The position numbers and the translations under genes are program-made. The notes under the pieces are model-generated. The model saw only the letters and a program-made list of their open reading frames with translations. It did no database searches and had not been told where the DNA came from. A DNA stretch of 64,000 nucleotides, taken from the NCBI RefSeq assembly GCF_028858535.1, contig NZ_JAPMOU010000001.1:124001-188000 (forward strand). Direction: 5' to 3'. The stretch is from Spartinivicinus poritis. GTDB lineage: Bacteria > Pseudomonadota > Gammaproteobacteria > Pseudomonadales > Zooshikellaceae. Shown here one piece after another: positions 3,132 through 52,043 of this stretch; within the stretch, counting starts at the first letter, position 1; every line of letters starts with the position of its first letter.

Positions 3132-3282
3132 AAAGATACACCTCCCAGGTAATAGAGGGTGTTGCAAAAGAGTACAGAAAGTAAATTTTGCGACAACCTG
3201 AATACACTAGGGGTATATTTATCTGTTCGCCAAATAAACGGACTATACTAATCCCGGACTGATTAATTTGGGTGCTTTCCCT

Positions 3283-4119
3283 ATGGCTAACCTGTCAGAA
3301 CGAATTGAAGAAGAGATTTTAGACGCACTTAGAAATGATGAATTAAGCCTGCCAACCCTTCCTGAAGTAGCATTAAAAGTACGGGAAACCGCAGAAGACC
3401 CGGAAGCAGGAGTGGTTGAGTTGGCAAAAGTTATTAGTAATGATGCCGCCATTACCGCTCGCATTATAAAGGTCGTTAACTCCCCCTTAATGCGTACCAG
3501 CCGTGAAATCGATAATATCCAAATGGCGGTGAATCGGCTAGGTATGACCTATAGTGCCAACCTTGCCACCGGGCTGGCGATGGAGCAAATGTTCCAAGCT
3601 ACTTCAGATGTTGTAGACAAAATGATGCGCGATGTGTGGTCTAAAAGCACTGAAGTTGCAGGTATCTGCAATGTGTTATGCCGACACTATACTAAGCTAC
3701 AACCAGACCAAGCAATGCTTGCAGGACTCATGCATAAAATTGGTGCACTACCAGTGCTGACTTATGTGGAAAGTATCTCTAACATTCCCGATAGTATTAC
3801 CCTGGCTCATGTTATTGAAAAAACTCACCCCACTCTAGGCACCAAAATTCTTGAAGCCTGGGATTTCCCCAGCATGATTGCCAAAGTGCCTGAAGAATAT
3901 ATCAAGTTTGATCGAGACTCCCCTAAAGTAGATTACGTAGATATTGTGATGGTCGCTAACTTACAAAGCTTAGTCGGCACTGGCCACCCTTATACAGAAA
4001 TGGACTGGAGTTCAATAAAGGCTTTTGAAAAACTCGGCTTAGATCCAAATGTAGACATGAACGAAGCTGAAGACTTGAGTGATGAGATGGAAGCCGCTAT
4101 GGCCCTGCTAGCTCAATAA
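3283..4119 (+). CDS. HDOD-domain signalling protein 1
   Basis: HDOD proteins are degenerate HD-fold domains used as signalling or scaffold modules, often in motility, biofilm and stress circuits; their biochemical activity is mostly unknown. The HDOD core begins at LPTLPEVALKVRE and continues through ISNDAAITARIIKVVNSPL and the long helical region containing AMLAGLMHKIGALP. The catalytic HD pair of true phosphohydrolases is absent, as expected. An upstream in-frame TTG at 3268 adds five residues but has no ribosome-binding site, so ATG 3283 is preferred (278 residues). It lies 151 nt after ygfZ. It is one of three HDOD genes in the window, the others being near 18.5 and 50.8 kb. The specific role is unknown. 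Confidence 0.88.
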   Translation: MANLSERIEEEILDALRNDELSLPTLPEVALKVRETAEDPEAGVVELAKVISNDAAITARIIKVVNSPLMRTSREIDNIQMAVNRLGMTYSANLATGLAMEQMFQATSDVVDKMMRDVWSKSTEVAGICNVLCRHYTKLQPDQAMLAGLMHKIGALPVLTYVESISNIPDSITLAHVIEKTHPTLGTKILEAWDFPSMIAKVPEEYIKFDRDSPKVDYVDIVMVANLQSLVGTGHPYTEMDWSSIKAFEKLGLDPNVDMNEAEDLSDEMEAAMALLAQ

Positions 4120-4242: not shown

Positions 4243-7200
4243 TTAAGGGATATTCTCTTCTACTAGGTGCAACGCTTCATCAAAGTCAAAGTTATCAATT
4301 TTTTCTCCAATTTGGCCAAGCAGCTTTGGATCAAGTGCGTTCGTTAACTGGGGCATTAACTTTTGCCATACAGCCATTACTTCGGTATCCCCACTAGCCA
4401 GCATATTTTTCAATTGACCAAGTTCATCTGCAGCAGAGGCATCACTACTATTATGCTCACTAGTCACTTCAGCTCCAACAGCTGCTTGGATGTCAGTTGT
4501 CGTATCATCAGTGTCTTCACTAATGACTCCTGGTAACTGACTCAATTCTTCTGACAACATTTGAGAGCATGCTTCTAGTTGATTAAATGCCTGCTCAGCC
4601 TGCTCAAACTGCTCTGCTTTAATTAGTTTTTCTAATGCCAAGCAACTGTCTTGTAATTCGTTAGCACCAATATTACCCGCAACCCCCTTCATTGTATGAG
4701 CTTGATAAAGGGCTTGCTCCCAGTCTCGATTAGTAAGTGACTGCCCTAGTGACTGCAAATTTGCTGGCTGCTGATTAATAAAATCGCGGAGCAACTTACA
4801 ATATAAAACCTGATTTTGCATAACCCTGGATAAGCCTGCAGTTAAATCAATACTAGCAAGCTGCTCTGGCCACTCTAACTGAGGTTGATTAACCCTTTTA
4901 TTGCTAATAATGGGTTTCGCTTTGAGCCACCTGGCAATCATGACACTCAATTCATCAGGGTTTAATGGCTTTGCAATATGGTCATTCATACCTGCAGCCA
5001 AGCACTTTTCTCGATCTCGTCGCATTGCATGAGCTGTCATTGCCACAATAGGCAGCTTATCAAATTGAGGCATACTGCGAATTTTTTCTGTTGCCTGAAA
5101 GCCATCCATTTCAGGCATTTGAATATCCATAAATACCAGTTGAAAGTTATCCTGCTGAATGCGGTCTACTGCCTCTCGACCATTATTAACAATGACAACA
5201 TTCAAGCCCAGTGCTAATAATAATTCCTGAGCAACCTGCTGGTTAATTTCATTATCTTCTGCCAACAATACTTTAGCACCCGCCAGTTGTGGTGCTATTT
5301 GAGTCAATTGCTGACTGCCTTTTAATACTCTGGCTCGATACCAGCGGTCGCAGGTTCTTAAGACAGTTTCCAGTAATACGGAAGGGCTGACAGGTTTAAT
5401 TAAAAAACCATCCACGGCACCTTGTGCCTGTTGCATAATTTCTTCCCGGCCATAAGCGGTGACCATTACAATTGCAGGTATTTTATATAGCCCCTCCATT
5501 TGCTTGATATGAATTGATGCATCTATACCATCAGTGTCGGGCATTCGCCAATCCATCAACACCAGCTCAAAACAATCACCAGGCATCTGGTTAGCCTGCT
5601 TAATTAATTCATAAGCTTCCGTCGCTGAGCTGACCGCCTGAGGTCTCAGGCTAAATGTTTCCAGCATATCAGTAAGCACTGTTTGTGATGTTTCATTATC
5701 ATCCACTATTAATACGCGAACACCTTGCAGCTCTTCACTGAGTCTTTTTAATTGATCTTCTGAGCGATGGATGCCAAGTTTAGCGGTAAACACAAACTCA
5801 CTGCCATGCCCCACTTCACTCACTACTTTTATATCTCCTCCCATCATGGCCACGAGTTTTTTACAAATGGCTAGGCCTAGCCCTGTGCCACCAAACTTAC
5901 GGGTGGTTGAGCCATCCACCTGAGAAAATGAGTCAAATAAGCGAGTTAAATGATCTTCACTAATCCCAATACCACTGTCCTTGACAGTAAATACCAGTTC
6001 AACTTCTTCATCACCTTTCGAGCGTACTTTAGCACTAACCGTCACCTGCCCTTTACGGGTAAACTTAATCGCGTTATGAGTTAAATTAATTAAGACTTGG
6101 CCCAACCGCAGTGGATCACCGATCAATTGACGAGGCACATCAGGCTCTATTTGATACACAACTTTTAGGTTTTTCTCTTCTGCTTTAACCCCCATCATGC
6201 TCGATAAATTATCAAAGACTTCTTCTATATCGAAGTTGATGGACTCCATATCCATTTTGCCTGCTTCAATTTTTGAGAAATCTAGAATGTCATTAATAAT
6301 GCCCAGCAAAGCGTGGGATGAAGATTTAATTTTACTAATATAGTCGTATTGTTTTTTACTGAGCTCTGTCTGAAGTGCCAAATGACTCATACCAATAATA
6401 GCGTTCATTGGTGTACGAATTTCATGGCTCATATTGGCTAAAAATTCACTTTTCGCTAAATTTGCCTGATCTGCTGTTTCTTTAGCTTGACGAAGCGCTT
6501 CTTCAGCGTGTTTACGGTCAGTAATATCCCGGCTGGACATAAACACATAGCCTTCACCGTCATACTCCATAAAGTTAGCCGTTACCTCCACAGGGTAAAC
6601 AGAATTATCTTTACGGCGTCGGAGGGTTTCGAAGGTTCTGGGTTTACCACGGGTTAGTACATTCCACAACGATTCCCAGGCTCGCTGATTCAACTCAGGG
6701 TCAATGTTCGTAACTTTTTTATTGAGTAACTCTTCCTGCTCGTAACCCAATGAACGGCATAAGGCCATATTCACATAACGATGGCTGCCATCCTGACGCA
6801 CCCAAAGAATATCATCTGCAGAATTATCTAAAGAAAAACGAGCTAATGACAATTCTTGTCGGCGGGTTAACTCTTCCGTGATATCGACATGCGTACCCAC
6901 TGCACGCAAGGGTTCATTTTTATGATTACGCTTAACCACCTTACCCCGAGTTTGTACTGTACTATAACTGCCTTCTTGCCGGCGTACTCGATAAGTGCAT
7001 TCAAAACTGTCATTTTGGGTGGCAAACATATGGTCTAAAAATGCCGTCGTTTGCGCTTTATCATCAGGGTGGATTAAATCTTCCCAGGCTTCTTTCGTTC
7101 CTTTTATCGTATCAGGCTGATACCCCAGCATAATGGCAAAACGAGGACTAAAATAAATTTTGCCTGCCGGAATATTCCAGTCCCAAAGCCCATCTGTCGC

Positions 7201-10098
7201 AGCATCCATTGCCAGTTGATAGCGCTCTTCACTTATACGTAATGCATCCTCAGCATCTTTACGGGCTCGGCCAATGGCAATTAATTCTCCTGCGCGCCAT
7301 AACAAAGCAACTTCTTCACTAGTCCAGGTTTTATCCTGATCAACTGTGACTTGGGCAATGGAGCCAACAACCCGCCCTGACAGCAACATAGGCACATGAA
7401 TAACTGAGCGAATATTGAGTGATTCCAAATAATGGCGTACTGATGAAGGCTCATGCACACCAAAGCTACCCAACGACCACTGGCACACTTCCCCTTTTAA
7501 TGGCCGACTATCCAGTGCCCGAAAATGTTCAGTTAACATTTGCTGCTGCTGTTCGGTATAGTCTGGCATGGATTTAATGTGCCAGTTATGAGTGATGCTG
7601 GCTCTTTTATAATCAGTGTCATAATTCAGTACATAGCTGCGATCAGCCCCCATAAACTCACCAATCACTCTAATGGTGTACTGAATTGCTTCATCCAGCT
7701 CCCGATCCATAAACTGCCGGGTAATGTTACTGATCATCCGGTCCATTTGCGCCCGCATCCGTAAGGCTTTTTCTGCCTTATGACGCTCATCAATTTCTCT
7801 GGATAACCGCCAGTTCCAGTAAATAATCAGTAAAATAATGGCCAGGGTAATAACCACCCCGATAATAAATTCTTTCGTAGGCTTCCATACTCTAGGTTGA
7901 ATAGAAATCCACTTTCCTTCGATTTCATTTTTTTCTTTCGTTGGAATACTACTCAACACTTTATTTAGAATGGTGCTAAACACTTCCCAGTGGCGATGGG
8001 TGGCCATTCGATAGTCGTAGTTATACCCCACTTCAGCAACATTGCGTAAATTGGTTATCTTAGTCCGATCAATGGAGTACGATAGAGTCGCCCGGTTAAC
8101 TATCATCGCATCAAGCTGACCTAACGACACCTGCTTAATACCACTAACAAAGTCCGGCACATTGATAAATTCGATTTCTGGGTAGCGGGATTTAATAAAT
8201 TCCGTTGGTTCAAAATCAGGCAAAGTAGCCACTTTTTTGCCCGCTAAATCTTTTATGCTTTTAATGCTATCGTCGGTACTGCGCGCAATAATGTCAGTTG
8301 GAATTTTCAGATAAGGCTGAGTAAAGGCATAGCGCTTGGCATGATCTTCATCCCAGGCAATCACACTCAGCATATCCACTTCACGACGACGTAATTTCTC
8401 TTTAGCTGCTTCCCAATTAGCCGAAGGGACGTATTTCATAGTAATCCCTAAGCGCTTCTCAATAATCTCTATATATTCAGCAGCAATTCCCCGATATTTG
8501 CTATCTTCATCTAAAAACTCGATCGGTGGGTATTTAGGGTCACCCGTAAAAGTTATTATGGGGTGGTCAGCTAGCCATTGTTTTTCTTCTTCAGTTAATT
8601 TAAGGGGAACAGCCTTATCACTAAAATAACGGGTTTTTGGGTCTGCTAACCAACGAGCTTCCATTTCTCGAAACTGTTCATGGGTGATTAAACTGAGCCC
8701 CTTATTAATATCATTTAATAGATCTCGACGCCCTTTCAGTACTCCCGCATGAAATTTTTCCCGAAAAGTAAACTGGGTGGATGCTTTTATTTCACCCACC
8801 AGCCCCAACCGATTCAGCAAAATATTAATTGACACGCGCTCAGCAATAAACGCATCAATTTGTTTTACCTGTAACGCACGAATTAGGCTTTCATTATTTT
8901 CAAAGGTAATCACTCGGGCATCAGACCAATGTTTATCTATATACACCTGATGGGATGTCCCTCTTACTACCCCTAAACGTCTACCCGCTAATTGCTCTTT
9001 GCTACGAATTGGCTCACCCGACGCGTCATAAAACAACACCGAGCTCATTTCATAAAAGGGTTGTGAAAATTCCAGCCATTCTTTGCGAGCAATCGTTTCC
9101 GAAAGCCCAGAGTGAATATCCACCTCTCCATCCTGCACTGACTCAAGGGTTTCCTGCCACTCAGTCGCCTTAAAGCGCACTTGCTTGCCATTTTTTTTCG
9201 CCCAAAGCCGCCATAAATCAACAAAGAGCCCAGCTGGACGACCTTTGGCATTTAAAAATGATAACGGAGGGAAGTCAGTATCAATAGCAACAATTAAAGC
9301 CCCACTGGTGTAGCTTTGGGTTTGCTCCAACCATTTATTTTCTATTGCTTTGCGATCAGCTGCTGAAATTTCTTGCATACCTTCTCGAATCAAGGCTTCG
9401 ATTGACTCATTATCAGGATTTACTGCAGCATAAAGGGTTCGATGATACAGAGGCTGTTCTGCTTGGTAATTATATTCCCGAGAGATCCCCTGCTTAGCCA
9501 TTAAAAACCGCAAAGTAGGTCCACTGCCCACAAAAACGCGGATTTCTCCTGCTTGAGCAGCTTTCAACATTGCTATATTATTTTGATACCTAACTAATGA
9601 CGCATCTTTTAAGCGGCTTGTTATTTCTTCAGCAGTGTCTGAGCCACTGACTATGCCTATTTTAAAGCCTGCTAAATCCTGTAGACTTTTTACCCCCAAA
9701 ACATTTCGATGATAAAAAAAGTAAATACTGCTTTTTCCAACTGGCGTAACGCCTTTTAGATTAATTGCTTTTAGTTCCTTGGTAAGTAAGCCTGCATGGA
9801 TATCCGCATGCCCCCTTGCTACCATTTCTGCTGCCACTATCGCAGGTGCACCCAAAAAACGCACCTGCACATTAGCTTGATCAGCCCAGCGACGCCACAA
9901 ATCAATAACAAAACCATCAGCCTTGCCTTGTTCATTAGTGAATTGATAAGGCTCTTGGCCGAGTGAGTAGGCTACCGTTATCGTATCTTGGGGCTGATTA
10001 CCAACCTGCTCCCCCTGTTCTGCTTGGAGAGAACTGCAAAAAGTGGTGATAACTAACCATAACGGGAACAACAGAAAAAAAGTAAATTGCTTCATCAA
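4243..10098 (-). CDS. BvgS/EvgS-like hybrid histidine kinase with three periplasmic sensor domains
   Basis: A 1951-residue phosphorelay sensor. Order: signal peptide (1-26); three solute-binding protein type 3 (Venus-flytrap) domains at about 38-258, 267-488 and 512-733; a transmembrane segment at about 743-761; GAF at about 795-945; PAS at about 955-1075 and 1085-1195; HisKA with His1225 in MSHEIRTPM; HATPase with NAIKFT, DSGIGIS and GGTGLGLAI (1342-1411); receiver 1 with Asp1516 and Lys1568; receiver 2 with Asp1658 and Lys1710; an Hpt domain with His1801 in HTMKG; and a C-terminal helical tail ending in FDFDEAL. All phosphotransfer residues are intact. BvgS and EvgS have two flytrap domains, so three is unusual. 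No response-regulator gene is adjacent, so its output partner must lie elsewhere. The ligand is unknown; polar amino acids or similar small molecules are typical of the fold. Confidence 0.95.
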
Positions 10099-18473: not shown

Positions 18474-19418
18474 ATGGCAACAGCTCCTCATATTCAAATA
18501 GCACAACAGTTAGAGCAAGGTAAAAAGCCTCTTCCTCACCTTCCTGAAACAGTCGTTACCATCCGTCAGATTATTGCTAACCCCAGCCACCACCAAAACG
18601 ACATTATTCAATTATTAGAACAAGACCCCGTACTAGTTGATCAGCTGATGAAGCTGGCTGACTCCCCTCTCTTCCATCAAGCTGCCTCCCCTGTAGATTT
18701 ACGTGGAGCAATCCAAAGGCTGGGAGAATACGCCGTTAGTAATTTTGTCTTAACTTACACAATAAAAAAGCTGTTTCCTTCTGATTCGAAGTTGGCCAAA
18801 CGTTTCATGGCCATCTACTGGCAGCGCAGTGTTGCCTTGTCAGCTATCAGTGCCATTATGGCAAAGCACATTCCACAGCTAAGTACTGATGAAGCAATGC
18901 TTGCATCATTATTACAGGACGCTGGCAGCATGTTATTGATTATCAACTTGGCAAAAGAGCCCAACCTGCTTGCCAATGAGAAAAAAGTGAAACAAATGTG
19001 TCGGAGCGTTAATAACCGCCTAACTAGCTTACTGCTAAACCACTGGCATATGCCTGTTACCTACATAGAAGCTGTAAAGCATCGAGTTAATTGGCAGTAC
19101 GCCCCTCAGCAGTATGACTTAACCTGCCACTGCATATTAGCCAGGCATCTTTGGCTTACCCATAAACCCAAGCCAGTTAAACTAATCGCCATAGAGGAAC
19201 TACCAGCTTATCAACTGTCTCCTATCGTACAGCACCAGTTACCCGAACAAACTCACTTAATGAACTTTATTTATCAGGATGCTTGTGAAATGACAGAAAT
19301 GCTGGGTGGGAAGGTTAATTTTTATCCACAAAAACGCGCTACAAAAAAAACCAGACCATCCTCGCGCCCTTCTTTTTTCCAAACCATTAAGAAGCATTTT
19401 CAAGGTAAAGGTAAATAG
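18474..19418 (+). CDS. HDOD-domain signalling protein 2
   Basis: A 314-residue protein with an HDOD core starting at LPHLPETVVTIRQII and continuing through LLEQDPVLVDQLMKLADSPLFHQ, AIQRLGEYAVSNFVL and EAMLASLLQDAGSMLLI. The HD metal-binding pair is absent. The C-terminal tail from about residue 280 is strongly basic (KRATKKTRPSSRPS..KKHFQGKGK), which could bind nucleic acid or polyanions; this is inference. It is a paralogue of the HDOD protein at 3.3 kb with the same general layout. No partner gene is co-directional, so its pathway is unknown. Confidence 0.85.
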   Translation: MATAPHIQIAQQLEQGKKPLPHLPETVVTIRQIIANPSHHQNDIIQLLEQDPVLVDQLMKLADSPLFHQAASPVDLRGAIQRLGEYAVSNFVLTYTIKKLFPSDSKLAKRFMAIYWQRSVALSAISAIMAKHIPQLSTDEAMLASLLQDAGSMLLIINLAKEPNLLANEKKVKQMCRSVNNRLTSLLLNHWHMPVTYIEAVKHRVNWQYAPQQYDLTCHCILARHLWLTHKPKPVKLIAIEELPAYQLSPIVQHQLPEQTHLMNFIYQDACEMTEMLGGKVNFYPQKRATKKTRPSSRPSFFQTIKKHFQGKGK

Positions 19419-28951: not shown

Positions 28952-29686
28952 TCACTTATTTTTAACGCCTAACAACTTAGCTAAGTTTTCAGCTGGCTGA
29001 TAACCTGGAATCAAACGTCCATCAGCCAAAACTAAGGCAGGTGTACCGCTTACACCAACCTGTAAGCCCAGCTTATATTGCTCTTCGACAGGGTTATCGC
29101 ACTTTTTACCTGCTACTTTTTGGCCTTTTTTCGCTTTGGTCATGGCATCCTTAGGATCCTTAGCACACCAGACATTTTCCATTATTGAATAGGCTGGGGA
29201 TTGTTTACCACCACGAGGAAACGCTAAATAACGGACTTCTATGCCCATTTTGTTAAGCTCTGGCACTTCGGTATGCAGCTTACGACAGTAGCCACAGTCG
29301 ACATCCGTGAATACAGTGACATGAGACTTGGCCTTACCCTCTGGAGAAAAAACTACCATCTTCTCTTTTGGTACACCATCAATTACCTTGGCTAGCGCCT
29401 TGCTTCGAGCCTGCTCAGTTAAGTTTGTCCATTTATTGCCGTCAATCTTTAACAGATCGCCACGAAACAGATAGCCACCATCAGCACTTGAGTAAACTAG
29501 CTGGCCACCAGAAAACTGTACTTCGTAGACCCCTTTCACTGGCGTTTCAGTAATTCGGTCTATTGTCACTTTACCACCCAGCTTACTTAACTTGGCTTTA
29601 ATCGCTTCCTCAGGAGAAGCCGCTATCGCTGAGCTTGCCACTAAAGCAATTGTTGCTCCAAGGGCTAATTTACGAAAGGGAGTCAT
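28952..29686 (-). CDS. dsbC: Thiol:disulfide interchange protein DsbC
   Basis: Periplasmic disulfide isomerase. A signal peptide (MTPFRKLALGATIALVASSAIA) precedes an N-terminal dimerisation domain and a thioredoxin-fold domain with active site CGYC in TDVDCGYCRKLH and the cis-proline loop SGTPALVLADG. A second Cys pair (WCAKD and KKCDNP) matches the structural disulfide of the family. Length 244 is typical. It lies between xerD and hom, the same order as in Pseudomonas; a 452-nt gap with a MITE-like element now separates it from xerD. Confidence 0.96.
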   Translation of the reverse strand: MTPFRKLALGATIALVASSAIAASPEEAIKAKLSKLGGKVTIDRITETPVKGVYEVQFSGGQLVYSSADGGYLFRGDLLKIDGNKWTNLTEQARSKALAKVIDGVPKEKMVVFSPEGKAKSHVTVFTDVDCGYCRKLHTEVPELNKMGIEVRYLAFPRGGKQSPAYSIMENVWCAKDPKDAMTKAKKGQKVAGKKCDNPVEEQYKLGLQVGVSGTPALVLADGRLIPGYQPAENLAKLLGVKNK

Positions 29687-30138
29687 ACAAATCCTCGTTG
29701 TGTTTTAAAATCCACCTGCACTAGAGAGAGAAAATAAAGCAAAAGGTTCCCTCCTACACGCGAGCAATTATAACAGATTGATTACTTGATTAAATTGCAC
29801 TTTCATCAAAGAAAATGTCGCCAAAGCAATGATTTGGGTAAGAACTACAGCCTGATTCATTGGTAGCAATACTAGGGCCTGTTAACACTATTTGAATCAC
29901 CACTGCCGGAAACTATTTTTTTGTCCAGCAAAGCACAAGGAATGCCGTGTAGCCATTCTACATAAACGACTTGTAACACAGCTGGGCGGAAAAATAGTCT
30001 CGGCCCAAAGGGTTGTGGCTGTAAAAGTGCTACTCGTTGTTGCTCACTGTTCATTTAGAATAACTAAACTTCTCGCTTCGCGCCTAGATTAGCGCTTTTA
30101 CAGTCACAACAGTGACGGTTCAAATAGTTTAACAGGCC
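29687..30138. other. 452-nt gap between dsbC and xerD
   Basis: The first 185 nt are AT-rich upstream sequence of dsbC. The remainder is a MITE-like element (29876-30138), described separately. Short ORFs inside the element lie on both strands and have no recognisable product or ribosome-binding site. Confidence 0.7.
29876..30138. mobile_element. MITE-like element at the xerD stop codon
   Basis: A 263-bp non-coding element. Its ends GGCCTGTTAACACTATTTGAA and TTCAAATAGTTTAACAGGCC are inverted copies apart from a one-base indel, and it is flanked by CTAG at 29872-29875 and 30139-30142, a probable target duplication. A second inverted pair, 30012-30030 and 30092-30110, lies inside. The right CTAG contains the TAG stop codon of xerD. 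The TIR and CTAG target resemble IS5-group preferences, but no transposase is present. Confidence 0.8.
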
Positions 30139-31041
30139 CTAGGCTCTTGGGTGGTGTTCTTTATAAAGCTGTTGCAATCGATGCTGCGCAACATAAGTAT
30201 AAATTTGCGTAGTAGACAAATCACTGTGCCCAAGCATCATCTGTACTGCCCTTAGGTTTGCGCCATGATTGAGTAAATGCGTAGCAAAGGCATGACGTAG
30301 CGTATGTGGAGAAACTTCAATGGTAATTCCTGCCAATACTGTATATTTTTTTACTCGGTACCAGAACGTTTGTCTGGTCATTGCAGTACCACGCGTCGAA
30401 GGAAACAGTACTTCACAGCTAGCACTTCCCACTAAGTGGGACCGGCCATTTGCTAGATAACTTTCAAGCCAATCTTGTGCTTCTTCTCCTACTGGAATCA
30501 ACCGCTCTTTTTTGCCCTTACCAACCACTCGCAAAGCTCCACGATTAAGACTTAACTGATGTACGGTTAACCCCACCAGCTCCGATACCCGAAGCCCACT
30601 ACTATATAAAAGCTCTAACATAGCTTTGTCTCGCTGCCCTACTAAAGTCGACAAATCCGGGGCTTCGAGCAATGCTTCAACCTGTTCTTCAGACAACGAC
30701 TTCGGTAAATAACGGCCCAGTTTTGGCATTGCAATATGTTGGGTTGGGTCATCCTCTCGTAACTGCTGCAATAATAGATACCGATAAAAGCGACGCAACA
30801 CAGATAAACAACGAGCTTGAGAACGTTTATTGTAGCCCGCATGCAACCGGTGCTGAAGGTAGGCCTGAATATGATCAGACGTTGCTAATAGCAGCTGCTT
30901 AGACTCAAGCCAGCTTACAAACCCAGACAAGTCACTCCGATAAGCAGTTAAGGTATTTTGGCTAGTCCCTCTTTCTAACCATAAGTGATCTAGAAACTGA
31001 TTAATTAACTGGTCTGCTTGTATTGTTGCCATTCTTGCCAT
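30139..31041 (-). CDS. xerD: Site-specific tyrosine recombinase XerD
   Basis: Partner of XerC that resolves chromosome dimers at dif under FtsK control. The 300-residue protein has the SAM-like N-terminal domain and the tyrosine recombinase catalytic set: Arg in SSGLRVSELVGL, Lys in VVGKGKKERLIP, HTLRHAFATHL, GHSDLSTTQIYTYV with the nucleophilic Tyr. It ends in HHPRA like E. coli XerD. ATG 31041 is preferred over the overlapping GTG at 31044; ATG 31032 is also possible. The stop codon is part of the target duplication of a MITE-like insertion. Confidence 0.97.
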   Translation of the reverse strand: MARMATIQADQLINQFLDHLWLERGTSQNTLTAYRSDLSGFVSWLESKQLLLATSDHIQAYLQHRLHAGYNKRSQARCLSVLRRFYRYLLLQQLREDDPTQHIAMPKLGRYLPKSLSEEQVEALLEAPDLSTLVGQRDKAMLELLYSSGLRVSELVGLTVHQLSLNRGALRVVGKGKKERLIPVGEEAQDWLESYLANGRSHLVGSASCEVLFPSTRGTAMTRQTFWYRVKKYTVLAGITIEVSPHTLRHAFATHLLNHGANLRAVQMMLGHSDLSTTQIYTYVAQHRLQQLYKEHHPRA

Positions 31042-31112
31042 CACATATAAACTTGATTAACTGCCGTATTAATAAACACTTTTAAGGTTTGGGTTTCAAT
31101 AAATTTAAAGTT

Positions 31113-31997
31113 ATGAACCAACAGCTAATCAACAAACGTCGTATTTTGCGGTTTCTCTTATCGCCCATTACCCTGTGCTTAATAATACTATTCATTTTAC
31201 CCTCTGCTATGCCTGCTAATTACTGGTTAACCCGACAGTTTTTTTATCCTGATAGCCATTATCGACTTACTCCTGCTCAATTAGGCATTGAGTACGAAAC
31301 CATCACTTTACAGCCTTCGCCAGGCAATACTCTCAAAAACTGGCTGCTCAAACCAAAAGATACACCCAAGGCTACTATTTTATTTTTACATGGTAATGCT
31401 CAAAACATCAGTACCCATATTCATAGCGTTGCCTGGCTAGTTGAGCACAACTATCAACTTTTTATGCTAGATTACCGTGGTTATGGTAAGTCGACAGGCA
31501 GCCCAATTATGCCAGAGGTACTTGAAGATGTGGCTGCTGCCAGTCAGTGGCTCCAACAGCATACTTCTTCTCCTTATTTTTTAATGGGGCAAAGCCTTGG
31601 TGCTGCTTTAGCTATTAATCATGCTGCTACCAGCAACACTCAATTTAATGCAATTATTATTGATGCACCTTTTACTGGCTTTCGCACTATTGCTCAGGAT
31701 GTATTAAGCGCAAACTGGTTAACTTGGGCTTTACAATATCCACTTTCACGCCTGATACCCGACGAGTATGAACCTATTAACCAATTGACTAAAATCACCC
31801 ACTCGCCTCCCATCCTAGTTTTTCACAGTCAAGATGATGAAGTAATTCCTTATTATCATGGAAAGCGCTTAGTAGAGTCCTGCCCAGACAACTGTCGATT
31901 AATTACAACCAAAGGCCCCCATATTGCCACTTTTAGCTATAACCAACACCGCCAAATGCTATTGGATTTTCTTGACCAAAACCTGCAAAATAAATAG
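31113..31997 (+). CDS. Membrane-anchored alpha/beta hydrolase
   Basis: A serine hydrolase of the ABHD13/YfhR-like type, 294 residues. A hydrophobic N-terminal segment at about residues 14-30 (ITLCLIILFILPSAMPA) anchors it in the inner membrane or serves as a signal. The fold features are the HGNAQN oxyanion segment, DYRGYGKSTG, the nucleophile elbow GQSLGAALA, and a C-terminal FHSQDDEVIP Asp and GPHIATF His. The substrate is unknown. An in-frame TTG 24 nt upstream is an alternative start. It is divergent from xerD and precedes the CHAD-ParA pair by 150 nt; whether it belongs to that unit is unclear. Confidence 0.85.
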   Translation: MNQQLINKRRILRFLLSPITLCLIILFILPSAMPANYWLTRQFFYPDSHYRLTPAQLGIEYETITLQPSPGNTLKNWLLKPKDTPKATILFLHGNAQNISTHIHSVAWLVEHNYQLFMLDYRGYGKSTGSPIMPEVLEDVAAASQWLQQHTSSPYFLMGQSLGAALAINHAATSNTQFNAIIIDAPFTGFRTIAQDVLSANWLTWALQYPLSRLIPDEYEPINQLTKITHSPPILVFHSQDDEVIPYYHGKRLVESCPDNCRLITTKGPHIATFSYNQHRQMLLDFLDQNLQNK

Positions 31998-32147
31998 CTG
32001 CGCTCTACCTATAGAAACAAAGTAAAAGCTCTAGAAAACTATATTGAGCTTTTGCAACACAACCAAGTGGGGTGGCTCAAAGATAAACTATAGCTCTTCA
32101 TAAGAAATATGGAGCAGCTAGATGAAGTCACGGAAGAGGAGTAAACC

Positions 32148-33722
32148 ATGACACTCTTAGCCCAGTCGTTGGCTAAACCTGTCGTATCTTATTGGCAGTT
32201 ACCTAGCCGAAAAAACCCGCAATCTGCCGTACGCTTAATAAAGAAGCAATTTCCAAATGTTTGTCACTCTCAGACAACTCAATCAATCTCTTTGTATGAC
32301 GCTTTTGGTTGGCCCCTTTGGTTTGACAATACAATGCTGTACCAAAGCGACAGCCAACTCATTCTTGCTCCAAAAGGCTGTTTTGCCTACGAAAGCTTAA
32401 TTGCAAGCTGCACTGTAAACAACCTTAACGGCCATAGTCAGCCGCTGGAGATAAGCCAGCTACCCAGTGGCATACTGAAAAATAAAGTAAAACCTCTTGT
32501 TAAGCTTAGAGCTTTGCAACAAATGGCTACCTTAACCTGTGACAGCCATACCATCAAAATGATTAACTCAGACCAAAAAATGGTTTGTAAAGCAATTATC
32601 TATATTTTATCAGACCAGCGTAACAGCACTACAAATATAGAGTATTTAGAGTTGCAACCGTTAAGAGGCTTTAATGAAGAGGCTCAACAGTTTACTCAGT
32701 TTTTAGAACAACACTTCACAACTATTGCAGAACCACCCCTCATTGATTATTGGGATAAGAATAAATTCACCCCTCAGCCTTACAGCATCAAGCCGCATTT
32801 CACTATCCAACCAGAAACGCCTACTCGCGAAGTAGTACTTAATATGGTTAATACCATGCTGGCGCTTGCCCAGCAAAATGAACAAGGTGTAATTAATGAT
32901 ATAGATACTGAGTATCTACATGACTACCGAGTAGCCATCCGTAAAATCCGCTCCTTACTAAGTTTAATCAGGCAGGTATTTCCCAAAACTGAAACCAAAC
33001 AGTTAAAACAACAACTCAAGGAGCTTGCTCAAAAAACTAATTTATTAAGAGACCTGGATGTATACTTGCTTGCTAAAGATGAGCTAAAAGCTCAACTACC
33101 CATTCAACTACAACCAGGATTAGATAAATTATTTCAAACCTTTGCTGATTTACGTAAAACTGAATGTAAAAGCATTGTTCAACACCTACAAAGTAAAACC
33201 TATCAAGACACGCTAACTACAATTAAAAACATACTAAAAGCCTGCAAAAAAGCAGCAAAAACCAAGAATAGTCATAAGCCCATCACCAAAATAGCGACAC
33301 AAGAAATCCACAATAAGTATCAACTGATTTGCCATAATGGTAGCTTATTAACAGCCACAACAGATGATGAAGCATTCCATGACTTACGGCTAGAATGCAA
33401 AAAGCTCCGCTACTTACTAGAACTCTTTGCTGACTTAATGGACACAACCACCAATAAACAAGCTGTTAGTAGTTTAAAAAAGCTCCAAGACAAACTGGGT
33501 CACTTCAATGATTTATCCGTTCAACAAGAAAAACTTTTATCTTATTTAGATGGCAATAATATCGACTCACTTGAAGCAGCTGCCATTGGCGGGCTAGTTA
33601 GTGTCATGCGTCGACAGCAAACGTCCTTAAAAGCAGAGATAATCAGTCAACTCAATGATTTCTGTTCATTTCCCACTCATAACAAGTTTAATCAGCTCTT
33701 TCAAAAGGTCAGTCAACAATGA
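32148..33722 (+). CDS. CHAD-domain protein with degenerate CYTH-like N-terminus
   Basis: A 524-residue protein. The C-terminal CHAD domain (about 225-510) is an all-helical module whose conserved basic residues bind polyphosphate: HDYRVAIRKIRS (258-269), LLRDLDV (299-305) and FHDLRLECKKLRYLLE (410-425). Residues 1-200 resemble the CYTH-derived half seen in related proteins (SLYDAFGWPLWFD), but I cannot find the ExExK triphosphatase signature, so this half is probably inactive. A GAGGAG lies 6-11 nt ahead of ATG 32148. Its stop overlaps the start of the ParA gene (ATGA), indicating coupled translation. Polyphosphate granule association is inferred from the CHAD family. Confidence 0.88.
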   Translation: MTLLAQSLAKPVVSYWQLPSRKNPQSAVRLIKKQFPNVCHSQTTQSISLYDAFGWPLWFDNTMLYQSDSQLILAPKGCFAYESLIASCTVNNLNGHSQPLEISQLPSGILKNKVKPLVKLRALQQMATLTCDSHTIKMINSDQKMVCKAIIYILSDQRNSTTNIEYLELQPLRGFNEEAQQFTQFLEQHFTTIAEPPLIDYWDKNKFTPQPYSIKPHFTIQPETPTREVVLNMVNTMLALAQQNEQGVINDIDTEYLHDYRVAIRKIRSLLSLIRQVFPKTETKQLKQQLKELAQKTNLLRDLDVYLLAKDELKAQLPIQLQPGLDKLFQTFADLRKTECKSIVQHLQSKTYQDTLTTIKNILKACKKAAKTKNSHKPITKIATQEIHNKYQLICHNGSLLTATTDDEAFHDLRLECKKLRYLLELFADLMDTTTNKQAVSSLKKLQDKLGHFNDLSVQQEKLLSYLDGNNIDSLEAAAIGGLVSVMRRQQTSLKAEIISQLNDFCSFPTHNKFNQLFQKVSQQ

Positions 33723-34468
33723 AGATAATAGCGGTTTACAGTATTAAAGGAGGCGTAGGCAAAACAGCTGCGGCAGTCAACTTAGCCTATGAAGCTAGCC
33801 AGGCTGGCTATCAAACACTGCTATGCGATTTAGATCCTCAAGGTGCGTCTTCTTTTTATTTTCGAGTAAGTGCATCAAAAAAACAAAAAAGCAAATGGTT
33901 TTTCAGCCAGTCTTATAAACTATTTCAACATATCAAAGCTTCGGACTATCCATTACTGGACATTTTGCCTGCCAAACTATCCTATCGACACTTTGATATC
34001 AAACTAGGTGCATTTAAAAAGTCACCACAAAAACAAATAGCAAAATTATTAAAACCTTTAAAGAAGTACTATGATGTCATTTTTCTCGACTGTCCACCCA
34101 GCATCAGTCTATTATCTGAAAATGTATTTCATACTGCAGACATTATTATGGTCCCTGTTATCCCCACGACTTTATCTGAGCGCACCCTAAATCAGCTAGT
34201 CAATTTTTTCCAGGAAAAATCATTAGATAAAAGTAAAATTCACCCTTTCTTTTCTATGGCTCAAGCATCCAAAAAACTACACCAACAGTCTGAAGCTAGG
34301 ATAAAAACTCGCTTTAATAGCATTATTAGCCAATCTATCCCTTTTTGTGCGGAAATTGAAAACATGGGTATTCACCAGAAACCTGTGGCTGCTTTTGCAC
34401 CTAAAAAGTCTGGAGCAATTGCTTATCAAACGCTTTGGAAAAAAATTGAGTCCTATTATTTTACTTGA
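33719..34468 (+). CDS. Small ParA/MinD-type ATPase coupled to CHAD gene
   Basis: A 249-residue deviant Walker A ATPase. KGGVGKT is at 10-16, with signature Lys10 and catalytic Lys15; DLDPQGASS is at 37-45; Walker B FLDCPPS is at 122-128. It has no N-terminal HTH, as in small ParAs used for chromosome, plasmid or organelle positioning. Many basic residues in the second half could bind nucleoid DNA. There is no parB next to it; the only coupled gene is the CHAD protein, overlapping by 4 nt. By analogy with McdA or PpfA-type ATPases, it may position a cargo bound by the CHAD protein. That role is inferred, not known. Confidence 0.88.
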   Translation: MKIIAVYSIKGGVGKTAAAVNLAYEASQAGYQTLLCDLDPQGASSFYFRVSASKKQKSKWFFSQSYKLFQHIKASDYPLLDILPAKLSYRHFDIKLGAFKKSPQKQIAKLLKPLKKYYDVIFLDCPPSISLLSENVFHTADIIMVPVIPTTLSERTLNQLVNFFQEKSLDKSKIHPFFSMAQASKKLHQQSEARIKTRFNSIISQSIPFCAEIENMGIHQKPVAAFAPKKSGAIAYQTLWKKIESYYFT

Positions 34469-34489
34469 AGCCCATTTATTACGGGCTTC
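34467..34489 (+). terminator. Terminator after the ParA gene
   Basis: Stem GAAGCCC/GGGCTTC with a 9-nt loop begins inside the ParA stop codon region and is followed by TACTTAAT. It separates this two-gene unit from the convergent secreted-protein gene. Confidence 0.6.
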
Positions 34490-34523
34490 TACTTAATCAT
34501 GGTGAACCAATATAGAGTTTTAC

Positions 34524-35336
34524 TTATTGCTTTCGAGTAACCCGATAATTCTGTCCTAAGTTATTATCTGTATACCAATGACCATCCACTTTATACCTTA
34601 CAAAGTATGCCAGTTGGTTTTCCTTAGCTACAGGTATTGAGCCTCCCCAGCTTTCTACTCCATATTTACTTGGGTTCTTAACCAAGCCTCCTTTTGGTCC
34701 TATAATTTGATAGGCTTGATACTTAGCTTCAATGGTATGGCTTGTTAGCCAGCTATCAAAACTATAAATCACTTGTACTTGCTTAGCATGTGCAATATTT
34801 CTCACCAACACCTGCGGATAAAAGCTCTTTTGCTCTTTATATAAGGAGCCAGAAAAAGTATTATTTACAGCAACATTGACATCTTCGGCCAAAAACCAAC
34901 CAGCACCTTTAGCTAGCCAATAATCTTTACTTTTATTATTGTCCCAATATTGCCCTGTTGCAGTGTTTGCATAAACAGCAAACTTAATAAAGTTGATACT
35001 TGGCTGTTGATAATTACTGCTACAACGCACCGTACCCCTCATACAAGACTGATAACTCAATTGCCAGCGCTCTAGATGTCCATCAATAACTGCGATTTTT
35101 TTCGCAGGCAAGTCTTGCCATTCGCCCTCATTATTAATCAAACGCAGCCAAACTGTTTCAGCCTTGAGATTACGCTCAACCAAAATCTCAAAAAATTGAT
35201 GTTCAGAGCGAGTACCATAAAAGCTATAACCCGAACTCATCGCCTTAACCAACTTAACAGGCTGTCCAGCAAAGCTTAAAGAAGAAAAAAGCAAAGTGAT
35301 AAAACAGATAATACACTTTAACGGTAAGTGTTTCAT
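34524..35336 (-). CDS. Secreted protein with two CBM21-like modules
   Basis: A 270-residue exported protein. The signal peptide is residues 1-23 (cleavage after SSLSFA). Two similar beta-rich modules follow, at about 27-140 and 152-266. Each has a V-x-N-x-hydrophobic start (ILVERNLKAETVWL; VLVRNIAHAKQVQV) and ends in an aromatic-rich strand, VYANTATGQYWDNN and YFVRYKVDGHWYTDNNLGQNY. This is the pattern of CBM21 starch/glycogen-binding modules (WxDNNxGxNY). C98 and C105 may form a disulfide. No catalytic domain is present. ATG 35336 has AAGG 6 nt upstream; ATG 35342 is the alternative. A role in binding extracellular alpha-glucan is inferred from fold resemblance only. Confidence 0.7.
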   Translation of the reverse strand: MKHLPLKCIICFITLLFSSLSFAGQPVKLVKAMSSGYSFYGTRSEHQFFEILVERNLKAETVWLRLINNEGEWQDLPAKKIAVIDGHLERWQLSYQSCMRGTVRCSSNYQQPSINFIKFAVYANTATGQYWDNNKSKDYWLAKGAGWFLAEDVNVAVNNTFSGSLYKEQKSFYPQVLVRNIAHAKQVQVIYSFDSWLTSHTIEAKYQAYQIIGPKGGLVKNPSKYGVESWGGSIPVAKENQLAYFVRYKVDGHWYTDNNLGQNYRVTRKQ

Positions 35337-35561
35337 AAGCATCCTTGTCTTCTTATACCACGCAATAGCAGCAAGAGTCCCAAAGCACTAAGCAAATGGT
35401 ATAATCGATAAAATTAGTGGTTACAAGTGTCGTATTTTATCAAAGAACCTGTAACAGACAAGAAAAAAGACACACTTTACATTTAAAATACTTAAAAAGT
35501 GTCACAAGCAAAAGAGTAGATACTTACAACTGGGTAAAACAAGCTTATTTATAAAAGACAT

Positions 35562-35589
35562 AAAAAAAGCAGCTAATGCTGCTTTTTTT
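35562..35589 (-). terminator. Terminator of the rpsP-rimM-trmD-rplS operon
   Basis: AAAAAAAGCAGC/GCTGCTTTTTTT with a 4-nt loop gives a classic intrinsic terminator with a seven-U tail, 7 nt after the rplS stop. Confidence 0.92.
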
Positions 35590-35596
35590 ATTGGAA

Positions 35597-35950
35597 CTAG
35601 GAAAGTTTTTCTTTAATTCTTGCTGCTTTACCAGAGCGCTCACGCAAGTAGTAAAGCTTCGCTTTACGTACATCACCACGACGCTTAACGGTAATGCTGT
35701 CTACCAACGGGCTATAAGTTTGAAACGCACGCTCAACTCCTACCCCATTGGAAATTTTACGAACAGTGAAAGAAGAGTTCAGACCACGATTACGCTTACC
35801 AATCACAACCCCTTCAAAGGCCTGTAAACGCTCACGGTTACCTTCTTTTACTTTTACCTGAACAATGACTGTATCACCTGGCCCAAAGGCAGGGATTTCT
35901 TTGTTCATTTGCTCATTTTCAATTTGCTGAATAATCTTGTTTTTGCTCAT
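35597..35950 (-). CDS. rplS: 50S ribosomal protein L19
   Basis: A 117-residue protein at the 30S-50S interface. The sequence from [15 protein letters not shown] through [16 protein letters not shown] to [15 protein letters not shown] is unmistakable L19. The reading frame is open much further upstream (to 36064), overlapping trmD, but ATG 35950 has AGGAG nearby and matches the family N-terminus. It is the last gene of rpsP-rimM-trmD-rplS. Confidence 0.97.
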
Positions 35951-35996
35951 CTCTTGTTTGCTCCTAGATACAAACACTTTCCGCTGGCTACAGACC

Positions 35997-36749
35997 TTAT
36001 TGCGTTTGGTTAGCCTGATATTCCTGCTGAAACTCAGCAAGTAACGCCTGTTGCTCATCATCAAGTTGATGTTTTGCTAATAAATCAGGACGTCTTAACC
36101 AGGTTCTTCCCAACGACTGTTTCAGTCGCCATTGCCTTATCATTTCATGGTTGCCACTCAGTAATACTGGTGGAACCTGCAACCCTGCCACCTGTTCTGG
36201 CCGAGTAAAATGAGGACAATCAAGTAAACCTTCTGCAAAAGAGTCTTCCAAAGCGGAATTCTTGTGACCTAGAGTGCCCGGGACAAAGCGTGAGACCGCA
36301 TCAATTAGCGTCATGGCAGCAATTTCACCACCACTTAAGACATAGTCACCCACCGACCATTCTTCATCAATTTCGGTTTCGACTATGCGCTCATCAATAC
36401 CTTCATATCGCCCTGCGACTATGATGAGTTTGTCATTTTGTGCCAACTCCATAACCCCTTGTTGGGTTAGTTGGCGTCCCTGAGGGGACATGTAAATCAC
36501 CTTAGCCTCAGTTCCAGCAGCCTGCTTTGCTGCATAGATGGCATCACGCAGAGGTTGAACTTTCATCAACATGCCGGGACCACCGCCATAAGGTCGGTCA
36601 TCCACTGTTTGGTGTTTATCATGAGTAAAGCTTCTTGGATTCCAAAATGCCACCTCAAGTAAACCTTGTTTTACCGCTCTTCCTGTTACGCCATACTCAG
36701 TAATGGCATTGAACATCTCAGGGAAGAGGGAAACAACCCCAAACCACAC
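35997..36749 (-). CDS. trmD: tRNA (guanine37-N1)-methyltransferase
   Basis: SAM-dependent SPOUT methyltransferase making m1G37 in tRNAs, which prevents +1 frameshifting. The trefoil-knot region is in [16 protein letters not shown] and [14 protein letters not shown], and the N-terminal [10 protein letters not shown] and [11 protein letters not shown] motifs are family hallmarks. Length 250 is standard. It begins 3 nt after rimM and is followed by rplS, the conserved operon order. Confidence 0.98.
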
Positions 36750-50804: not shown

Positions 50805-52043
50805 ATGGAAAAAAACAATCAGCCCTCTCTTGATGTCTTACGGCGCTTTGCCTGTTTTGAAAATCTTAACAAGCAACAGCTGATATTAATTGCAGCCGCT
50901 TGTGAGCAGCTATCGGTTGGCGCCAAAATAACCTTATTTAATATTGGTGAAACAGATGATAAAGAGTACTTTTTACTTAGCGGGGCAATAAAACTCACGG
51001 CTGCTGACGGTATTAGTAAAACGATTATAGCGGATAGTAAAGAGTCCATTGCACCTTTAGCAAGGCTGAAACCTAGACTATTTAAAGGGGAAACCACCCA
51101 AAAAAGTCAACTATTGGTGTTTGACCAAAGCCGACTTGATCAATTTTTGAGTGATAATAAAACAACCTTAAGTTCATTAATCCATGAAGATGAAGTAGAA
51201 GAACAATCTTTCTTTGACAGGTTTTCAGAAGACTTAATCCAAAACAGGCTACAACTTCCAACTTTGCCTCAAATAGCTATTGCGGTAAAAGAAGAGTTAA
51301 ATCGAAGCAACAATCACCTTAATGATATAACCCACATTTTAAAACAAGACCCTGCTATTGCTGCCAAAGTATTAGCAGCAGCTAACAGCCCCTTATTTCG
51401 AGGAATTAGTCCTTGCGATACACTTTCTGGGGCTATTTCCCGGCTCGGCACTAAAGCAACAGAACAGTTAGTAATTGCCCTTAGCCTACAGGAATTATTA
51501 CAAGTCAAAAGCCGCCTACTGCGACCACAAATTCATGAGTTTTGGCGTGAAAGTGTTGAAGTGGCTTGCTTAAGCCATGCCTTAGCGAAACACAGTAATC
51601 AGTTCAATCCAGAGAAAGCGCTATTGGTTGGTTTGGTACACAATATTGGTTTTATTCCTATTGTGCTGTATGCAGATCATACCGATGAAGAATGTACTAT
51701 TGCTGAATTAGATGAGCTCAATCAAGAATTTGGGCGTCGTATTACCCAAGCTATTTTACATAAATGGAACTTCCCTGAAGATATTGCGGAAGCTGCTTTG
51801 CACAGCCACGACTGGTATTATGTCAGCAGTAAGCCAGAAGACTACACTAACCTGTTAATCATGGCCCAATTACACTATGCCATGTTCAATCGCACACATT
51901 TTCCTGAGCTGCCTCGAATCAGCCTAATTCCCGCATCCAAACATATTGGCATTGGCGACTTTAACCCACAATTCAGCTTACAGATTAAAAAAGAAGCGGA
52001 TAAAAACATGGAGAGCTTTCATGCAATAGTGACTAACAAATGA
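50805..52043 (+). CDS. HDOD protein 3 with N-terminal cyclic-nucleotide-binding-like domain
   Basis: A 412-residue protein. Residues 10-125 look like a cyclic-nucleotide-binding/Crp-like beta-roll (LRRFACFENLNKQQLILIA; DKEYFLLSGAIKLTAADG), though the phosphate-binding cassette RxS is not clear, so ligand binding is uncertain. An HDOD domain follows from about 150 (LPTLPQIAIAVKEEL; ILKQDPAIAAKVLAAANSPL; LVGLVHNIGFIPIVLYADH). It is the third HDOD protein in the window and the only one with an extra sensor-like domain. Function is unknown; a signal-dependent regulatory role is inferred from domain content. Confidence 0.85.
   Translation: MEKNNQPSLDVLRRFACFENLNKQQLILIAAACEQLSVGAKITLFNIGETDDKEYFLLSGAIKLTAADGISKTIIADSKESIAPLARLKPRLFKGETTQKSQLLVFDQSRLDQFLSDNKTTLSSLIHEDEVEEQSFFDRFSEDLIQNRLQLPTLPQIAIAVKEELNRSNNHLNDITHILKQDPAIAAKVLAAANSPLFRGISPCDTLSGAISRLGTKATEQLVIALSLQELLQVKSRLLRPQIHEFWRESVEVACLSHALAKHSNQFNPEKALLVGLVHNIGFIPIVLYADHTDEECTIAELDELNQEFGRRITQAILHKWNFPEDIAEAALHSHDWYYVSSKPEDYTNLLIMAQLHYAMFNRTHFPELPRISLIPASKHIGIGDFNPQFSLQIKKEADKNMESFHAIVTNK

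Follow-up and report, generated by a model that had tools for sequence, protein, structure and literature searches.

A 64,000-nucleotide stretch of the Spartinivicinus poritis genome (contig NZ_JAPMOU010000001.1, positions 124,001–188,000; hereafter the window) carries two overlapping genes, encoding a CHAD domain protein and a ParA-type ATPase, that together are a strong candidate for a machine spacing polyphosphate (polyP) granules or sharing them out. The CHAD gene (32148–33722, + strand, ATG start) encodes 524 amino acids, a degenerate triphosphate-tunnel (CYTH-like) domain followed by a CHAD domain, and the ATPase gene (33719–34468, + strand, ATG start) encodes 249 amino acids and falls in a clade whose sampled members are mostly CHAD-linked. 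Both open reading frames were found where the original prediction, made from the sequence alone, had placed them, sharing the four bases of an ATGA stop/start overlap (33719–33722, + strand) through which the genes are likely translationally coupled. Our best reading, which we consider fairly probable, is that the pair constitutes a ParA-driven system for polyP granule positioning or inheritance.

The pair recurs in many other bacteria. A clear ParA orthologue was found in 12 of 37 relatives (E at most 5.6e-38, compared with 2.9e-21 for the best match in the rest), and a CHAD gene lies directly upstream in 8 of the 12. In a sample of 369 genomes drawn evenly from the host’s class, ParA scores were bimodal (at least 180 bits, then 150 or below), yielding 58 orthologues in 57 genomes; a CHAD gene immediately precedes 43 of these orthologues on the same strand. 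The same sample held 134 CHAD matches (a few maybe pieces of one gene) in 120 genomes, with ParA linkage in 37 of 68 frames of at least 440 amino acids vs 6 of 66 shorter frames. Twenty-five of 41 measured junctions overlap, 20 of them by exactly four bases, and 40 lie within 50 bases. A named scan of the best 80 of 478 relatives, which is biased to matches like the window’s own, found CHAD directly upstream of ParA in 73 (72 by the script’s rule plus L200, whose genes overlap); six of the seven others are Methylococcales.

The 73 linked loci span Gamma-, Beta- and Alphaproteobacteria, desulfobacteria, Chlorobi, and Kiritimatiellota. Linked pairs among these best 80 include Oceanospirillum, Colwellia, Marinospirillum, Sedimenticola, Nitrosomonas europaea, Ruegeria, Salipiger, Desulfobacter latus, Geobacter, Chlorobium, Pontiella, and Cerasicoccus, together with metagenome bins assigned to Dadabacteria, Rubripirellula, Chloroflexi, and Nocardiopsis, some of which may be mis-binned. 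A phylum search, in which presence alone was counted, detected ParA in 69 of 398 genomes. We do not sum the relative, class, and named counts because the samples partly overlap and the named one is biased. Recurrence across phyla and in the class sample rules out chance adjacency. The original prediction had suggested searching other genomes for the adjacency, and because it proved widely conserved it is not a peculiarity of this strain.

The CHAD–ParA pair is very probably linked to polyP. Within the class sample, ParA and CHAD co-occur strongly (both in 50 genomes, ParA only in 7, CHAD only in 70, neither in 242; p 4e-21), and covariation with ppk, also suggested beforehand, was found as well: ppk1 is present in 52 of 57 ParA genomes vs 162 of 312 others (52, 5, 162, 150 in the same order; p 4e-9). 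The association of ParA with CHAD persists within ppk1-bearing genomes (47, 5, 62, 100; p 9e-12). These p values are merely a guide because species are not independent.

Gene neighbourhoods point in the same direction. We surveyed up to ~7 kb on each side of 44 pairs, many on shorter contigs, for PPK1, PPX, PPK2, SixA-like phosphatase, PstS, PstA/C, PhoU, DUF47, and Pit. At least one counted phosphate or polyP gene was found near 23 of the 44 pairs. Scanned with the same profiles, 0 of 20 other ParA loci had one, as did 1 of 20 arbitrary regions placed at round coordinates within five of the same genomes; the profiles were built from the pairs' own neighbourhoods and so favour the linked set somewhat. 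PPK1, PPX, or PPK2 occurred near 10 pairs, and transport genes plus PhoU near 9. The commonest counted extra neighbour is a SixA-like histidine phosphatase (15 of 44; e.g., L084, L086, L091, L101, L112), and for archaea, too, SixA has been noted as a neighbour of CHAD (PMC10892726). Ten profile representatives were scanned, of which six are Pfam-specific (PPK1, Ppx-GppA, PPK2, PhoU, DUF47/PhoU_div, PHO4); the others are less specific, SixA-like being a general histidine phosphatase, PstA/C a general ABC permease, and PstS named by reading. The six specific families alone occur near 13 of 44 pairs vs 0 of 20 other ParA loci and 0 of 20 arbitrary regions. Among the best 80 of 478 named loci, 18 show a counted gene, 11 by the specific families. 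Clusters of histidine kinase (6 of 44), CorC (8), Nudix (3), and PhoH (5) genes also recur beside the pairs and were excluded because they are not specific; the histidine-kinase type was also seen near one of the 20 other ParA loci. No single enzyme accompanies the pair constantly, and the most constant neighbour of CHAD is parA itself. The host assembly has ppk1 and ppx on contig C4, separated by ~2 kb, as well as two PPK2 genes.

The CHAD protein of the window retains the features expected of a polyP binder. Its CHAD domain (32853–33536, + strand; residues 236–463; Pfam CHAD 7.6e-53) is the sole CHAD match in the 6.83-Mb assembly (E 0.001), and the predicted structure of the protein is confident (predicted local distance difference test 89.3, predicted template modelling score [pTM] 0.86). 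Residues 212–522 of the model match the Chlorobium tepidum CHAD protein (CtCHAD, 6qv7) with Z 36.7, root-mean-square deviation (rmsd) 1.8, and 32% identity over 311 aligned residues, and the model matches the polyP complex of CtCHAD (6qva) with Z 35.7. Six pore residues were mutated in CtCHAD: His253, Arg256, Arg260, Arg296, Arg418, and Tyr419 (PMC6537752). By phmmer and fold alignments all six are kept in the window protein, as H258, R261, R265, R301, R421, and Y422, the first three of which, plus R268, are encoded at 32919–32951 (+ strand). Each of the six is conserved in 34 or 35 of 35 aligned linked CHADs, the divergent or short L105, L106, L108, and L114 having been omitted of 38 with a readable start. 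Among the outer-patch positions K444 is retained, but not S441 or the four on the back side (H388, N389, Q392, L393). The original prediction had held that the CHAD domain binds polyP, and retention of the core binding residues agrees with it: binding has been shown for the close homologue CtCHAD and, judging from fold and residues, probably extends to the window protein. CHADs of other species have been reported on polyP granules (PMC6537752 and PMC9239181, citing Tumlirsch and Jendrossek 2017), and CHAD genes have been noted in polyP gene clusters (PMC6537752). CtCHAD was expressed as residues 208–522 (PMC6537752) and is thus the C-terminal part of a longer protein; a ParA-linked Chlorobium CHAD (L252) matches the crystallised CtCHAD at 2.5e-101 over 311 amino acids.

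The N-terminal half of the protein (32175–32762, + strand; residues 10–205) is predicted to adopt a triphosphate-tunnel fold (6yp4, Z 13.6, rmsd 3.1, 178 aligned residues; 2gfg, Z 13.4) and to be catalytically inactive. Neither the window protein nor any of five other linked proteins scanned matched Pfam CYTH at E ≤ 1, and the ExExK metal-binding signature was not found in the N-terminal half of the window protein, as the original prediction of a CYTH-derived half lacking ExExK had proposed. Scans of the first 90 residues of each frame found ExExK in 1 of 38 and 3 of 68 long frames that are linked vs 11 of 21 that are not. Because the signature is absent here and rare in linked compared with unlinked frames, the tunnel half of linked CHAD proteins is likely a dead enzyme, and it may possibly have become a ParA-interaction domain.

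These data bear on published readings of Acidithiobacillus, where a folD-ppk-parA-CHAD cluster has been interpreted as cyclic AMP signalling tied to polyP (PMC6416229) and where CHAD has been treated in connection with copper (PMC10892726). On such readings, argued in those two papers, the CYTH-CHAD protein would act as a class IV adenylate cyclase associated with PPK, or in copper resistance, with parA incidental, and the CYTH residues of the Acidithiobacillus protein are said to be conserved (PMC6416229). We consider this very improbable, given the rarity of ExExK in linked frames, the missing CYTH match in the six linked proteins scanned (the Acidithiobacillus protein not among them), and the position of parA as the most constant neighbour of CHAD.

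Two further sequence features were considered as marks of the ParA-linked subfamily. A C-terminal tail motif (33660–33701, + strand; F..F....N..F..LF-like), scored as a loose pattern, occurs in 29 of 41 linked vs 7 of 40 unlinked CHADs; it is also present in five long CHADs without a nearby ParA and lies inside the segment aligned to the CtCHAD crystal structure. The last 25 residues of linked CHADs are not significantly more basic (p 0.19). A tunnel-domain motif, [DE]xFDW, occurs in 29 of 41 linked and 0 of 40 unlinked CHADs of the class set; it was rejected as a ParA-binding motif, being kept in only 24 of 72 named linked frames.

The ATPase belongs to the ParA/MinD superfamily (Pfam AAA_31 1.8e-34, CbiA 1.5e-12). 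Its deviant Walker A motif, KGGVGKT, with signature lysine K10 and K15 (33746–33766, + strand), and its Walker A' motif, DLDPQG, with D37 and D39 (33827–33844, + strand), are intact, and K10, K15, D37, D39, and D124 are invariant in all 30 rows chosen for the alignment. Basic residues of the family are conserved at R49, K73, R90, R155, 184–185, and R220; the window protein has A183, S184, and Q220. Judging from its family and intact motifs, the ATPase presumably dimerises with ATP and binds the nucleoid. No ParB_N match was found near the pair, and the two in the assembly sit on contigs C28 and C92, each with a different ParA-like match close by; the expectation of a ParA without a ParB neighbour was thereby borne out, and a ParB-type partition system (ParABS) was rejected. 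A membrane-associated type (MinD) was also provisionally rejected, since the predicted model ends with its last helix (residues 231–247), leaving no added C-terminal extension. In a quick tree, a branch with 100% support (Shimodaira–Hasegawa approximate likelihood-ratio test) sets 51 CHAD-linked ParAs together with 22 solo ones apart from 20 other ParAs, which include the best non-orthologous matches of the class search. Linked and solo ParAs are intermixed inside the clade; the tree needs eight changes of the linked label, of which well-supported branches force just two. The linkage was probably, though not demonstrably, lost or gained repeatedly.

The basic residues conserved across the ParA family would also suit a passive tether, in which CHAD–ParA anchors polyP on the nucleoid, or links chromosome segregation or compaction with polyP, and spacing is not driven by ATP. 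AlgP offers a precedent: Pseudomonas aeruginosa requires this protein, whose C-terminal domain is of the DNA-binding type, to space its polyP granules evenly (PMC9239181). A tether of this kind would not need the catalytic residues that are invariant in the 30 aligned rows, and we regard it as improbable.

The predicted ParA structure is likewise confident (91.8, pTM 0.90), and its best fold matches are an ATP-bound ParA (8ray, Z 33.2) and HpSoj (32.5), followed by McdA (27.9), FleN (27.4), MinD (27.3), and BcsQ (26.5). The fold by itself cannot tell partition members of the family from regulatory ones. The ATPase could instead be a polyP-sensing switch, resembling BcsQ or FleN, that together with CHAD controls PPK1, PPX, or phosphate uptake while granules are not moved. 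The shared fold of FleN and BcsQ, the enzymes and transporters among the neighbours of the pair, and the failure to find a basic N-terminal contact region in CHAD are all compatible with such a switch. So is one ppk1-parA pair (L118, genome G196), in which parA (6928–7686) follows ppk1 (ending at 6920) by 7 bases in a genome with no CHAD match; this arrangement points to a different polyP adaptor or to some other use of ParA, and through its tie to ppk1 it counts for the granule reading as well. We nonetheless think a regulatory switch unlikely: the top fold and sequence matches are partition ParAs, no enzyme constantly adjoins the pair, and CHAD is a polymer binder reported on granules in other species (PMC6537752, PMC9239181).

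For granule positioning, the following steps can be envisaged. CHAD would bind polyP through its pore and thereby coat the granule, while ParA-ATP dimers would occupy the nucleoid. By analogy with McdA/McdB and ParA/ParB, granule-bound CHAD may capture ParA-ATP and stimulate its hydrolysis, so that granules would follow ParA gradients, stay apart, and be shared between daughters. The tunnel half, its metal-binding signature lost, would probably serve as a phosphate-binding or docking domain rather than an enzyme, and the overlapping genes would keep CHAD and ParA in ratio.

Several observations weigh against granule positioning. Fifteen of the 58 class-sample ParA orthologues are not beside CHAD, with CHAD elsewhere in the genome for 8 of them and no match at E 1e-6 in 7 genomes, and 31 of the 68 long-frame CHADs are not beside ParA. 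Five unlinked long CHADs have the tail motif and no ExExK, and no ParA-like P-loop was found within ~600 base pairs downstream. In six Methylococcales loci (L237, L242, L250, L257, L263, L273) ParA is kept but the fetched stretch holds no CHAD, and no shared replacement partner was found beside solo ParAs in seven loci (six Methylococcales, one Burkholderiaceae). Counted phosphate genes occur at just 1 of 17 solo ParA loci (L118), and none was found around the window’s own pair. The MinD, FleN, and BcsQ folds also match the ATPase, and its F209 aligns where the TtSoj alignment places a Soj arginine, which we take to be R218 of BsSoj, a DNA-binding residue. Finally, a basic, disordered N-terminus is the usual point at which ParA partners touch the ATPase (PMC10241942, PMC12204374). 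No such region was found in linked CHADs, whose first 20 amino acids carry a mean net charge of +0.09; 9 of 35 reach +2 or more and the window protein has +1, counts that rest on the chosen start codons.

The original proposal of a granule-positioning system is thus upheld in part: conserved adjacency, ppk1 co-occurrence, phosphate and polyP neighbours, and polyP-binding residues agree with it, and the missing basic contact region does not. More tentatively, we hypothesize that the pair represents a widespread, unrecognised polyP-granule positioning system, ancient or often transferred across phyla, whose adaptor would be a dead tunnel enzyme fused to a polyP-binding domain that activates ParA via a folded surface, or only when polyP-bound, rather than via a basic N-terminal peptide.

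The surroundings of the pair in the window are ordinary. An alpha/beta hydrolase gene lies just upstream, then xerD-, dsbC-, hom-, and thrC-like genes, and downstream are a CBM_21 protein and rplS-trmD-rimM-rpsP-ffh-like genes; names beyond Pfam matches were assigned by reading. The starch/glycogen-binding CBM_21 protein adjoins the pair (34524–35342, − strand; Pfam 5.7e-17). A CBM_21-like frame is kept beside the pair in two genomes of the same genus (L003, L004), and none was seen between parA and rplS in two family members (L005, L006). No RNA element reached gathering score in 29000–36000, and a promoter and terminator scan gave counts no higher than in shuffles. A defence system was rejected, PADLOC returning one weak match only, to the P-loop region of ParA (residues 3–39, 4e-07). 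Elsewhere, by reading, the window encodes a 1951-amino-acid hybrid sensor kinase with seemingly several stacked periplasmic-binding domains (4243–10098, − strand) and three HDOD-like signalling proteins (3268–4119, 18474–19418, and 50805–52043, + strand).

How bacteria place and share polyP granules is an open problem, to which the conserved CHAD–ParA pair brings two defined genes in many bacteria. A table in a 2025 review lists AlgP alone for polyP granules; according to the same review, the proteins positioning granules in Caulobacter are not yet identified, and whether positioning spends energy remains to be seen (PMC13052382). No CHAD–ParA positioning system was recognised in the open-licence PubMed Central literature, where a preprint or subscription paper could have been missed; the original statement that no such named system is known stands to that extent, and the gene adjacency itself had already been printed for Acidithiobacillus (PMC6416229, PMC10892726). 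If our reading is correct, a large group of ParB-less ParA ATPases gains a cargo, polyP granules join the list of ParA cargoes, and CtCHAD, crystallised with polyP, is part of such an adaptor.

Among known systems, McdA/McdB likewise consists of two genes, a ParA-type ATPase and a cargo-bound partner, without ParB or parS, and McdA shares the fold of the window’s ATPase. McdB, however, is small and largely disordered, whereas the partner here is a folded CHAD/triphosphate-tunnel protein in which a basic N-terminal region was not found, and the cargo is the carboxysome rather than the proposed polyP. The ATPase is nearest to ParABS (Soj/Spo0J) members in fold and sequence (8ray, HpSoj, TtSoj), but identity in the top fold matches is 23–29%, ParB is absent from the window locus, and the 20 other sampled ParAs form a clade separate from the CHAD-linked one. 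The Acidithiobacillus folD-ppk-parA-CHAD cluster contains the same gene pair beside ppk1; it has been read as cyclic AMP signalling or copper resistance, and positioning is not proposed in the available parts of those papers (PMC6416229, PMC10892726). AlgP of Pseudomonas aeruginosa is needed for an outcome like that proposed here, polyP granules spaced evenly on the nucleoid (PMC9239181), but is a histone H1-like protein whose ATP use is listed as unknown (PMC13052382). E. coli YgiF has the same order of triphosphate-tunnel and CHAD domains (5a60, Z 17.4 over two domains, rmsd 20), yet YgiF-type unlinked CHADs have an N-terminal ExExK that linked CHADs as a rule lack. CtCHAD and the other ‘phosins’ share the CHAD fold, with the pore residues retained here; CtCHAD comes from a protein laid out like that of the window, and a Chlorobium relative is ParA-linked; the available part of the published work treats the CHAD domain alone, and the word ParA was not found in its text, the gene maps of its Figure 1B lying outside that count (PMC6537752).

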